This document shows positions 11,410-15,481 of a stretch of 44,205 nt of DNA, piece by piece (position 1 is the first letter of the stretch; every line of letters begins with the position of its first letter). This DNA is from Propionivibrio limicola (GTDB taxonomy: Bacteria; Pseudomonadota; Gammaproteobacteria; Burkholderiales; Rhodocyclaceae), in assembly GCF_009469695.1 (NCBI RefSeq), contig NZ_SSSR01000025.1:1-44205 (forward strand), in the 5' to 3' direction. The position numbers and the translations under genes are program-made. Below the pieces are notes generated by a model. It saw only the letters and a program-made list of their open reading frames with translations, made no database searches and had not been told where the DNA came from.

Positions 11410-11895
11410 TCAATATGAGCGCCCGCCCCGGATGAAAGGGCCAAGCGCCGGCCACTCGATCGCGTCCAGCATGTTCTTCACGATCAACCCAAGCTCGGTA
11501 TCCCCCTCGATCGAGAGCGCCCGATTGAAAAACAGCGTATCAGGATCTTCTTGCCGCACGGCCAACTGAAGGAAGGCGGACAGATTGGCGCGGAAGGCCA
11601 AATCCGGGGCATCCGGCGCCGAGAACAGCGGACGGAAATAACCGCCGCGATAGGCAAAGCAGGCGACGCCCCCCGTATCGAGCACTTCGATCAGAAAAGT
11701 GCGGCCTTCGAGCAATTCCAGACTGTCGGCTGGCAACACTTTCATGCGGGTAGCCGCATTAAGCGCGGCGGTCAGCGCCACGGCGTGCGGCCATTGCGGA
11801 AGCCGGCGCCCGATGCGCGAAACGAGTGCCGGCAACCGGAAACTCGGAATGGAGAAGTTCGTCACCAGCAACGAGGGGGAAAGACTTTCGGACAT
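11410..11895 (-). CDS. ubiT: Anaerobic ubiquinone biosynthesis accessory factor UbiT (SCP2 domain)
   Basis: A 161-residue SCP2 lipid-carrier protein (YhbT type). In E. coli, UbiT replaces UbiJ when ubiquinone is made without oxygen and is thought to hold the prenylated intermediates. The core ends with FFNRALSIEGDTELGLIVKN, the family signature. The ATG at 11895 is chosen because AGGAG stands seven bases upstream; an upstream ATG at 11919 lacks this. It follows ubiV by 23 bp and is the last gene of the minus-strand ubiU-ubiV-ubiT operon. Confidence 0.93.
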   Translation of the reverse strand: MSESLSPSLLVTNFSIPSFRLPALVSRIGRRLPQWPHAVALTAALNAATRMKVLPADSLELLEGRTFLIEVLDTGGVACFAYRGGYFRPLFSAPDAPDLAFRANLSAFLQLAVRQEDPDTLFFNRALSIEGDTELGLIVKNMLDAIEWPALGPFIRGGRSY

Positions 11896-11918
11896 ACTCA
11901 AACTCCTTGCAAATCTCA

Positions 11919-12812
11919 TCAATCGGCTTGCTGCCGGGCAATATGCGACGCGATGCCCGGCTCGCCATGCCAGTAACCATCCACCATGCCGTTCTCGGCC
12001 CAGCCCGCCATGTCGGGAAGTTTCGACTCACCATGCCGGGCCGCATCAAACGCGGCGATGATTTCCGGCGTATGCACCGGTTGCGGACTGATACGCGCAA
12101 TATCGATGCCCATCTTCAGCATATCCGGTACCGCCGCGAGCAGATTGCACGTGTGCGCCGACATCGTCTGGATGCCGTTAATCGCCAGAAACGGCTGGCC
12201 TTCGCGGGTTTTCAGCGTAATGGCTTCCGGATGCAGCAGACACTTGAACTGGCAGTCATCCTTGACCAGATTATAGTGGCGCGCCGTAAAGCAACGTGCG
12301 GAGAACGCCAACGGCAGCTTCCCGAAAACGAAAACCTCGGTCTCCACACCATCCGGCCGCGCCGCGTGCAGCGCTGCAATCATTTCCCGACTGGCCTCCA
12401 GCGGAGGCACCCAGCGTTGCGCGCCATAACGATGGTAGGTGGCCAAGGTCGCGGCGTTATAGATGTTCAGGTGCGACCCGGCTACGAACGGCCGGCCGGC
12501 GGCCAGATTGACCGCCCCGAGATCGTTGGCCTCGATCCGGCATCCGGCCTCGTCGACAAGACGGCGCAACGCCTTGAGGTCACTTTCCGACTGCAACAAC
12601 GCTTGTGCAGAGACGACGACTTCTTTCCCGGCATCGGCAAGCTGGCGTGCCAGAGCGATCCAGTCGGCCACGCGCAATTCCTGACGCCGCGAGCAAACGA
12701 CCTCGCCGACGTAAATGATGTCGAGGGCGTCCAACTGCGCCATCTCGGCATAGAAATCAAGAACCTTTTGTTTCGGCCAGAAAAAGAGGAGGGGGCCAAG
12801 AGCTAGTTTCAT
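11919..12812 (-). CDS. ubiV: O2-independent ubiquinone hydroxylation protein UbiV (U32 family)
   Basis: A 297-residue U32 peptidase-family protein that, with UbiU, binds a [4Fe-4S] cluster and supports ring hydroxylation in ubiquinone synthesis without O2. The four cysteine ligands are visible: C40 (GEVVCSRR) and C174, C187, C191 (ARCFTARH...DDCQFKC), matching the C-x12-C-x3-C spacing of E. coli UbiV. I start at ATG 12812 (MKLALGPLL); the ribosome binding site is weak. It is 57 bp after ubiU. Confidence 0.95.
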
Positions 12813-12869: not shown

Positions 12870-13883
12870 TTATCGCCAAGGCCGGTTGTAGGCGCCAAGC
12901 GTCGCCTGCACACCTTCGGAGACCTTGCCGAGTTCTGTTTGCCAGGCCGGCTTAACCTTGAAATGGTCGAAATCGCGGGCCAGTTCGTCCAGCGCCGCGC
13001 GCAGCGTGCGCGTCACCTGTGTGACATAGGCCGGGCTGCGCTGGCGCCCTTCCACCTTGATGGCCGAAGCACCGATCTTCACGATCTCCGGCAGAATCTC
13101 CAGCACATTCAGGCTCGTCGGTTCTTCCAGCGCATAATAGGTCGCACCATTGACTTCGAACCGTCCCTTGCAGAGCGTCGGGTAGCCCGCCGCCTCATTG
13201 TCGCCGTAGCGGTCGATCAGAATGCCGTTCAACCGCGTCGACATCTGGCCCGGCGCCTTCTCCCACTTGACGTACTTGGCCGGCGAACAGGCCCCGACGG
13301 TATTCGGCGACTCGCCGGTCGCGTAGGACGACAGCCAGCAGCGCCCCTCGTTCATCACGCACAGGCTGCCAAAACCAAACACCTCGATTTCGATCGACGT
13401 GTTTTTGATCACCTGTTCGACCTGTGCCAGCGTCAAGACACGCGGCAACACCGCGCGCCGGATGCCAAACTCGCGCTGCGCAAAATTGACCGCCTCGTAA
13501 CTCGTCGCCGAGCCCTGTACCGAGAGGTGCAAGCGCAGATCGGGATGGCGCCGGCTGGCGTAGTCGAGCAGCCCGATGTCGGCCAGGATCACGGCATCGA
13601 CGCCGAGATCGGCCGCACCATCGACGGCCGCATGCCAATCGGCCTCGCGCCCCGGTTGCGGGAAGGTATTGATCGCCATCAACACGTGCTTGCCACGTGC
13701 GTGCGCGTAGTTGATGCCCTCCATCATCGCCTTGCGGTCGAAATTGAGGCCGGCGAAATTACGGGCGTTGGTGTCGTTCTTGTAGCCGATATAGACGGTA
13801 TCGGCGCCGCTATCGATGGCGGCCTTGAGCGCCGGTAAACTGCCGGCCGGACAAACCAGTTCGGGAATTTTCTGCTGCTGCAT
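12870..13883 (-). CDS. ubiU: O2-independent ubiquinone hydroxylation protein UbiU (U32 family)
   Basis: A 337-residue U32-family partner of UbiV. The cluster-binding cysteines are C175, C182, C199 and C238 (GSLCVMNEGRCWLSS, GACSP, PTLCKG). Their spacing is identical to E. coli UbiU (169, 176, 193, 232). The N-terminal ELVCPAGSLPALKAAIDSGAD is typical of U32 proteins. ATG 13883 is chosen over an upstream frame extension because the family begins here. It is the first gene of ubiU-ubiV-ubiT and has a -10 element and an FNR-type box upstream, suggesting anaerobic induction. Confidence 0.95.
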   Translation of the reverse strand: MQQQKIPELVCPAGSLPALKAAIDSGADTVYIGYKNDTNARNFAGLNFDRKAMMEGINYAHARGKHVLMAINTFPQPGREADWHAAVDGAADLGVDAVILADIGLLDYASRRHPDLRLHLSVQGSATSYEAVNFAQREFGIRRAVLPRVLTLAQVEQVIKNTSIEIEVFGFGSLCVMNEGRCWLSSYATGESPNTVGACSPAKYVKWEKAPGQMSTRLNGILIDRYGDNEAAGYPTLCKGRFEVNGATYYALEEPTSLNVLEILPEIVKIGASAIKVEGRQRSPAYVTQVTRTLRAALDELARDFDHFKVKPAWQTELGKVSEGVQATLGAYNRPWR

Positions 13884-13909
13884 GGTGAATCTCGCAAAAC
13901 GAAGCTGCA

Positions 13910-13915
13910 AGTATA
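13910..13915 (-). promoter_or_regulatory. -10 element of the ubiUVT promoter
   Basis: TATACT on the minus strand, giving a predicted start near 13903 and a leader of about 20 bases before the ubiU ATG. There is no good -35 hexamer at 16-18 bp, which is usual for a promoter that depends on an activator. Confidence 0.6.
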
Positions 13916-13936
13916 GCGAGCGGCCGTCAAAACCGC

Positions 13937-13950
13937 ATGATTTTCATCAC
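13937..13950 (-). promoter_or_regulatory. FNR/ANR-type binding site upstream of ubiU
   Basis: Read on the minus strand the site is GTGAT-GAAA-ATCAT, against the FNR consensus TTGAT-N4-ATCAA: four of five bases match in each half and the core TGAT/ATCA is perfect. The centre (13943.5) is about 40-41 bp upstream of the start predicted from TATACT, the class II activator position. E. coli ubiUVT is known to be used anaerobically, which fits. Confidence 0.65.
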
Positions 13951-13993
13951 TATTCTGCTCTTGTCGCGGGGCGACACCCCCACTCCCGGCGGC

Positions 13994-14791
13994 TCAAAAA
14001 TCAGGACTTCGGGGCTTGCGCGGGGCGTTGGCGAACAGGCGGTCGTAAATGGCATTGGGCAGCAGGCGCAGCAGTTTGGCAACGACCCCCATCTGCCAGG
14101 GAATGACGGCATAGCTGCTTCCACGGTCGATGACCCGCGCGAAGCGGCGGGCGGCCTCATCGGCCGCCAGCATGAACGGCATCGGATAGGGATTGATCTC
14201 GGTCATCGGCGTCGCAATATAGCCCGGCGCAATGGTCACGACCGGAATGCCATACCGGCGCATCTCCAGGCGCAGACTTTCGAGATAGGCGATAGCCGCC
14301 GCTTTCGAGGCGCTGTAGGCCTCTGCCCCCGGCAAGCCGCGAATACCGGCGACAGACGCAATGCCGACCAGCCGGCAAGGGACTCCCGTAGCAGCCGCCG
14401 CCTTCATGGCCGCGATGAATGGCGAAAACGTAGCCGCCAAGCCGAAAACATTGACATCGAGGATGCGCCGAATGGTATCGAGATCCTCGCGGCATTCGGT
14501 CAGCGTACCGCTCGATACACCGGCATTGGCAATGACGATCGCCGGAACGCCGTGGCGGGCAATAAAGTCACCGGCAGACTGCTGTAGCGCGGGAGCATCC
14601 GCGACATCAAGCCCGTAACAGGAGACTCCTGCGGCACCCGTCTGGACAAGCTCTGCCGCAAACGCTGCCAGCACATCCTTGCGCCGGGCAGCCAGACCGA
14701 GGACCGCCCCCTGCCGTGCATAGTACCGGGCCAGCGCCTGTCCGATACCCGAGGAGGCACCGGTAATGAAAACTCGAAGAGGCGCCTGCAC
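13994..14791 (-). CDS. Short-chain dehydrogenase/reductase (SDR)
   Basis: A 265-residue classical SDR. The cofactor motif is TGASSGIGQALA (about residues 10-21), with NAG near residue 92, the catalytic serine in IASVAG and the Y-S-A-S-K pair (Tyr-x3-Lys). Arg residues after the second strand (AARRK) suggest NADP(H). It resembles the betaproteobacterial SDR often found after dsbA at the end of the argS-SPOR-dsbA cluster. The substrate is unknown. It ends 110 bp before ubiU, with only a weak GTCGC-CCC-GCGAC hairpin between, so some read-through into ubiU is possible. Confidence 0.85.
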   Translation of the reverse strand: MQAPLRVFITGASSGIGQALARYYARQGAVLGLAARRKDVLAAFAAELVQTGAAGVSCYGLDVADAPALQQSAGDFIARHGVPAIVIANAGVSSGTLTECREDLDTIRRILDVNVFGLAATFSPFIAAMKAAAATGVPCRLVGIASVAGIRGLPGAEAYSASKAAAIAYLESLRLEMRRYGIPVVTIAPGYIATPMTEINPYPMPFMLAADEAARRFARVIDRGSSYAVIPWQMGVVAKLLRLLPNAIYDRLFANAPRKPRSPDF

Positions 14792-14821
14792 GGTCGGGAC
14801 GGAAGTGGGATGAAATGAAGC

Positions 14822-15481
14822 TTACTTTTTCTTGAGCTTGCGTTCGGCACGCGCCTTGTCGATGACCTTGTCGGCCAGCGCCAGCAACTCGGCATGCGAT
14901 TTCACGCCTTGCCCGACCACCAGATAGCGACCATCGATGACCAGCGACGGCACACCGCGGATCTTGGCGGCCTGCGCCAGTTGATCGCCGCGCCTGGCCT
15001 TGCTGACGACGCCAAAGGAATTGAAAGCTTCACTGAATTTCCGCGCGTCGACACCCTGTGCCTTCACCCACTCTGTGACGCTCTTCTCGTCGACCAGTCT
15101 CAGGCCCTTGACTTGGATAGCATGAAATACCGCATCATCAAGCCGCATGAGTTCGCCGATCGCCTCAAGCGAGTAATAAAGGCGCGCCATGAGCTGGTAA
15201 TACGGATTACCGAAACCGACCGGAACACGGCGGAACGCCACATCGGCGGGTTGCTTGGCGGCCCACTTGACGAGCAATGGGTGCAATTCGCTGCAATGCG
15301 GACAACCGTAAGAGAAGAATTCGAGCACTTCGATCCGCGACGGATCATCCGTGGTCAGCGCCGGCTCGATTGCGGCATAGTCGCGCCCGACCGCCAGTTG
15401 TTGCGCCTGAGCGGACAATGCCATCCCAAACAGGGCCAGAGTAACAGCGGCCAGCCAGCCGATCACGGTGTTCTTCATCAT
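14822..15481 (-). CDS. dsbA: Periplasmic thiol:disulfide interchange protein DsbA
   Basis: A 219-residue periplasmic oxidase that introduces disulfide bonds into exported proteins. The signal peptide ends in SAQA with cleavage before QQLAVG. The active site is C-P-H-C in FFSYGCPHCSELHP (about residues 56-69) and the cis-proline loop is RGVPSLVIDG. The C-terminus is very lysine rich. Two consecutive ATGs (15481, 15478) can serve as start; GAGG upstream suits either. It follows the SPOR gene by 6 bp. Confidence 0.93.
   Translation of the reverse strand: MMKNTVIGWLAAVTLALFGMALSAQAQQLAVGRDYAAIEPALTTDDPSRIEVLEFFSYGCPHCSELHPLLVKWAAKQPADVAFRRVPVGFGNPYYQLMARLYYSLEAIGELMRLDDAVFHAIQVKGLRLVDEKSVTEWVKAQGVDARKFSEAFNSFGVVSKARRGDQLAQAAKIRGVPSLVIDGRYLVVGQGVKSHAELLALADKVIDKARAERKLKKK

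Follow-up and report, generated by a model that had tools for sequence, protein, structure and literature searches.

The window, meaning the whole stretch of DNA analysed here, is the 44,205-nucleotide contig NZ_SSSR01000025.1 of Propionivibrio limicola. On one strand it carries ubiU, ubiV and ubiT together, an operon for the oxygen-independent ubiquinone pathway whose three products all score above their curated cut-offs. The genes and the elements preceding them are the following.

11410..11922, minus strand: ubiT (NF047962, 130.3 bits, cut-off 46.9)
11919..12812, minus strand: ubiV (NF047965, 381.4 bits, cut-off 275)
12870..13883, minus strand: ubiU (NF047963, 549.8 bits, cut-off 440), its ATG at 13883 agreeing with the start of its orthologues
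13884..13903, minus strand: predicted transcription start (about 13903) and short 5' leader, placed from the position of the -10 element
13910..13915, minus strand: -10 element TATACT, letters read directly, 21 nt past the box
13937..13950, minus strand: FNR-type box GTGATGAAAATCAT, an operator at a class II position, letters read directly, kept in 15 of 25 readable genomes of the genus

The listed frame of ubiT opens at a TTG codon, and an ATG at 11919 overlaps the stop codon of ubiV. The ubiU start codon (13883-13881, minus strand) lies downstream of both the box and TATACT. The initial annotation had proposed a minus-strand FNR-type box before ubiUVT, and this is borne out by GTGATGAAAATCAT at 13950-13937, which agrees with TTGATN4ATCAA in 8 of 10 letters and has a perfect TGATN4ATCA core, with TGA-N6-TCA intact. 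The centre of the box is at 13943.5, and the gap to TATACT is exactly 21 nt. With transcription predicted to begin seven bases past the -10 element (about 13903), the box would be centred at -40.5, and with eight bases at -41.5, in agreement with the 40-41 bp from the TATACT-predicted start given in that annotation. Its remark that a -35 element is absent also holds: a scan of 13000-15000 yielded no sigma-70-type -35/-10 pair, and the TTGACG at 13930-13925 is separated from TATACT by only 9 nt. The region thus has the makings of a class II promoter, with its site near -41.5 from the predicted start and a -10 element, and without a convincing -35. In E. coli, 19 of the 23 directly FNR-activated promoters of known start are reported to have their site at -41.5 +/- 4 (PMC3688515).

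A second ubiU-ubiV pair is found elsewhere in the P. limicola genome (L255 7893-9878; G000:C11, about 68.4-70.4 kb), where it follows a nitrite/sulfite-reductase-like gene and one for an aromatic amino acid transaminase. Both products exceed the cut-off (UbiU 533.9 bits, UbiV 361.7 bits), and this UbiU is 66% identical to that of the window. No box was found in the 160 nt upstream of the pair, and no second full-length UbiU of more than 36% identity was found in the other genomes of the genus.

Taken by itself, the motif is weak evidence: with up to two mismatches allowed, the window contains 17 matches against a mean of 10.2 after shuffling, and 6 of 100 shuffles reached 17. Such frequent loose matches are what speaks for the palindrome before ubiU being a chance match. 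We nevertheless regard that explanation as scarcely credible, because letters and spacing are conserved across genomes, which already contradicts chance. Of 2000 shuffles of the 110-nt gap before ubiU, 4 contained the TGATN4ATCA core, and none of 100 shuffles of the whole window held a box with a -10 element at 20-22 nt. A perfect TTGATN4ATCAA at 13669-13682 was also considered as a site and rejected; it lies inside the ubiU codons for a conserved LMAIN, only 16 of the 121 loci have it exactly, and it was therefore taken as a coincidence of codons.

Conservation was followed in a set of 28 Propionivibrio-like genomes, hereafter the genus, of which 25 have a readable region upstream of ubiU; the three left out of this comparison are G010 (orthologue not found) and, because of contig ends, G020 and G023. 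The check suggested in the initial annotation, conservation of the palindrome at the same distance in relatives, came out in its favour. The box is present in 15 of the 25, with a gap to TATACT of exactly 21 nt in all 15. Mean pairwise identity is 0.96 over the ten defined letters of the box, 0.59 over the N4, 0.59 over part of the spacer, and 0.34 over the left flank (28 nt). Two genomes (G002 and G027) have the right half of the box only, and eight of the 25 have no box. Identical upstream sequences equate G003 with Propionivibrio soli, G002 with P. dicarboxylicus, and G001 with Ca. P. aalborgensis. The box of the window departs from the form in the other 14 box-bearing genomes at one letter (T to G, position 1).

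Outside the genus, loci were taken by named search, from the best 80 of 248 relatives; 78 of these loci extend 120 nt or more upstream, and 18 of the 78 repeat genomes of the genus. Among the remaining 60 loci, 51 have a comparable site, with a score of at least 8/10 (an event that arises in 4.4% of shuffles), and nine score below 8. Thirty-six of the 51 sites read TTGAC..ATCAA. When the sequence 18-25 nt downstream was scanned, every one of the 51 was followed by TANNNT, at 21 nt (34), 22 nt (15), or 23 nt (2). Thirty chosen genomes from outside the genus were searched for ubiU. Twenty of them encode FNR and have a ubiU upstream region, and there the best score is 8-10 in 17 (with the site at -134 in G095 and at -100 in G064) and 7 in three. 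Both FNR-less outside genomes in which the region is readable (G144, G160) are without a box before ubiU; it could not be read in G085 (contig end) or in G038, G069, and G113 (ubiU orthologue not found). The change of motif from TTGAC..ATCAA in most other genera to TTGAT..ATCAT in this one was considered as a possible mark of a new regulator and set aside: the boxes at ccoN in the genus keep TCAA, so that only the ubiU promoter shows the shift. In a scan of the genus for TTGATN4ATCATG, the minority of places that were inspected were mostly matches in coding regions, and no second promoter common to several genomes was seen among them.

The initial annotation called the promoter FNR/ANR-activated. 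The class II geometry and the conservation of the box stand, but the named activator is doubtful, as none of the 28 genus genomes yielded a canonical FNR/ANR. No match to the NCBIfam FNR model reached its cut-off of 228 bits in these 28, the best scoring 51 bits, and the count is likewise 0 of 17 among the genomes with completeness of at least 90% and contamination of no more than 5%. With the FNR protein of a relative as query, no match in the genus that covered most of the query exceeded 28% identity, although shorter stretches reach 30-42%. For P. limicola itself, searches by HTH_Crp_2, by cNMP-binding domain, by FNR model, and by FNR protein all failed to find a canonical FNR/ANR. Its genome encodes six HTH_Crp_2 proteins above cut-off, in none of which was an N-terminal cysteine cluster visible by eye, three long cNMP-binding frames (446, 625, and 738 aa) being left aside. 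By comparison, in a sample of 150 genomes of the family (five of this genus, 145 of other genera), an FNR match at E <= 5.3e-60 occurs in 139 of the 145 and is lacking in six (G038, G069, G085, G113, G144, and G160), and 20 of 20 strong FNR loci fit the pattern for the cysteine cluster and recognition helix. FNR seems to have been lost in this bacterium and in the close relatives examined, and "FNR/ANR-activated" is probably not right for P. limicola. Its assembly, in 56 contigs, is 97.94% complete, with about 2% missing, and a canonical FNR might sit in the unassembled part, in which case the annotation would be right as it was stated; the failure to find the gene in any of the 28 genomes, the 17 of high quality included, makes this very improbable. 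We saw no report of FNR loss in Propionivibrio in the open-licence PMC literature, covered mostly at the level of listings; in PMC4930944, fnr occurs once, within a cited title.

Oxygen-dependent ubiquinone hydroxylases (TIGR01988) are found above cut-off in 17 of the 28 genus genomes, P. limicola having two. Their distribution over the 25 readable genomes follows that of the box: 14 have both, eight have neither, two have hydroxylases only, and one has the box only. The two with hydroxylases only are the half-box genomes, and the one with the box only is G025, which is 78% complete. The box is therefore kept in 14 of 16 genomes with hydroxylases and absent in eight of nine without (Fisher p = 3.4e-4, a value that ignores kinship and reflects few independent events). 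In a UbiU tree, whose bootstrap had not settled, the eight box-less genomes require at least two changes, on well-supported branches in two places.

The promoter of ccoN (cbb3 oxidase) carries the same type of palindrome. Among 16 ccoN loci of the genus, it matches 10/10 at seven, 9/10 at six, and 8/10 or less at three (G005, G006, and G012); in a shuffled comparison, 9/10 occurred in 1.9% and 10/10 in 0 of 640. The gene is present in 11 of the 17 high-quality genus genomes, and no match to it was found in P. limicola.

With FNR seemingly lost, another regulator must read the box, or the box is a leftover. Only two of the six HTH_Crp_2 proteins of P. limicola have the E-x-x-S-R recognition motif: L005 (G000:C43), with helix VREIVSR, which forms a cluster in the genus, and L006 (G000:C56), with helix ARETVSR, which clusters with none. 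Comparison with solved structures identified both as general Crp/Fnr relatives only. The neighbours of L005 resemble, as we judge them, genes of sulfur metabolism, which rather disfavours L005 as an oxygen sensor. An R-E-x-x-S-R helix like that of CRP might accommodate the G at position 1 of the box, a guess from CRP chemistry on our part. Another Crp/Fnr protein of this genome, L001 (G000:C22:9100-9324), presumably resembles the CO sensor CooA.

An inventory of HTH_Crp_2 proteins was made for the 18 genus genomes that are at least 90% complete, with 60 stretches examined (L227 and L228 without a match to the reference proteins); the clusters formed from it leave out some weaker or fragmentary matches, a few of them above cut-off. 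Other clusters with E-x-x-S-R have helices that are IETASR-like, with N-terminal cysteines (cluster 3), QEHFSR, or SREMVSR. In G004 and G013 the gene of cluster 3 neighbours ccoN and is divergent from it, as is probably the case in G014. Seven of the 18 genomes encode a cysteine-rich FNR-like family (CTAWR...CLACDG...ETASR; L217, L218, L220-L223, and L226), whose genes in G004 and G013 are divergent from ccoN and which is possibly a substitute oxygen sensor. A replacement regulator shared by the whole genus was sought and dismissed: no Crp/Fnr cluster is common to the 11 high-quality genomes that bear the box, so the reader may vary by species.

A nitric-oxide-responsive, DNR-type regulator might read the box instead, in which case the signal would be nitrogen oxides and not oxygen. 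The cluster with helix QEHFSR, which we take to be DNR-like, occurs in nine genus genomes, and the motifs of DNR and FNR are described as closely alike (PMC8510549). This cluster was not found, however, in P. limicola or in G004, G006, and G008, which keep the box, and P. limicola lacks members of both cluster 2 and cluster 6, so that no DNR-type regulator was found encoded there; we think this explanation improbable. The main and serious rival is that the box is a relic: with FNR and its regulon gone, the left half-site would be decaying, and ubiUVT would have a low constitutive expression, either driven by TATACT or due to upstream read-through. In its favour are the failure to find FNR in P. 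limicola or the 28 genomes, the changed letter at position 1, the missing ccoN, and the two genomes that hold half a box. The same may be said of the search for further promoters of this geometry in the P. limicola genome, which, with a home-made gene caller, found none among the 28 places inspected of 34 distinct ones that match KTGATN4ATCAW. Against it, box and spacing are constrained throughout the genus despite the absence of FNR, the TGATN4ATCA core of P. limicola is intact, and this genome retains two oxygen-dependent hydroxylases, so that a switch would be useful. We consider the relic unlikely, though deserving of more weight than the other alternatives.

To the observed site, spacing, conservation, lack of a detected FNR, and association with hydroxylases we fit the following mechanism, for which we infer binding, an oxygen response, and present use of the site in P. 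limicola. A class II promoter of the Crp/Fnr family would drive ubiUVT. A dimer on TGATN4ATCA, overlapping the place of the absent -35 element, would recruit RNA polymerase to TATACT at low oxygen and so turn on the oxygen-independent route to ubiquinone. The operator would descend from ancestors in which canonical FNR read TGATN4ATCA. It would still be under selection after the genus lost FNR, and is likely to be read by another protein of the Crp/Fnr family with an E-x-x-S-R recognition helix. That the genus retains box and spacing under constraint without FNR is evident, the left flank having diverged. That the box before ubiUVT is an anaerobic switch now read by another Crp/Fnr-family protein, FNR having been lost, is the reading we favour, with modest confidence. 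The 9/10 or 10/10 boxes at 13 of 16 ccoN loci speak for it too; the lack of a Crp/Fnr cluster common to the 11 high-quality box-bearing genomes, the changed letter, the missing ccoN, the failure to see a further promoter of this geometry among the 28 places inspected in P. limicola, and the missing 2% of its genome speak against it. More tentatively, the genus may have lost FNR, kept selected operators at both ubiUVT and ccoN, and passed them to different Crp/Fnr paralogs according to species, the cysteine-rich FNR-like protein beside ccoN in some and an R-E-x-x-S-R protein in the species of the window.

FNR-type sites before ubiUVT are taken across the Pseudomonadota as a sign of control by FNR. 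A genus with such sites and without a detectable FNR means that predicting the site does not name the regulator. The genus also offers a natural experiment, in which the operator is mainly retained alongside the aerobic ubiquinone route and, at two places in the tree, is absent together with that route, as is expected if the job of the operator is to choose between the two routes.

FNR sites before ubiU and ubiT have already been published across the Pseudomonadota, and the FNR-less genus is the added twist. A survey (PMC11707229; ISME J 2024) reports candidate FNR sites for 1362 of 1566 ubiTUV sets; where the three genes share one strand, the site mostly precedes the first of them. The genes and motif are like those here, but the survey attributes the sites to FNR, whereas no canonical FNR was found in the present genus; measured here in addition are the gap of exactly 21 nt and the association with oxygen-dependent hydroxylases. 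In the related organism Ca. Accumulibacter, respiratory operons, cco among them, are preceded by an FNR motif and show expression linked to oxygen, although there, unlike here, an FNR gene is present; the word ubiquinone is absent from the main text of that report (PMC6446978). The ubiUVT operon of P. aeruginosa, with the three genes that the window also has, is transcribed under Anr, an oxygen sensor of the FNR family, but that species possesses Anr, and the small RNA SicX adds control of translation in it (PMC10247376). In E. coli, ubiUV is under Fnr control through an Fnr-type site, F1, which like the box described here is near the start, and mutation of which abolishes anaerobic UbiV; E. 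coli differs in having FNR, in a divergent ubiT with its own site F2, and in the poor right half of F1 (TTGATTTAAGGCAG) (PMC10470549).
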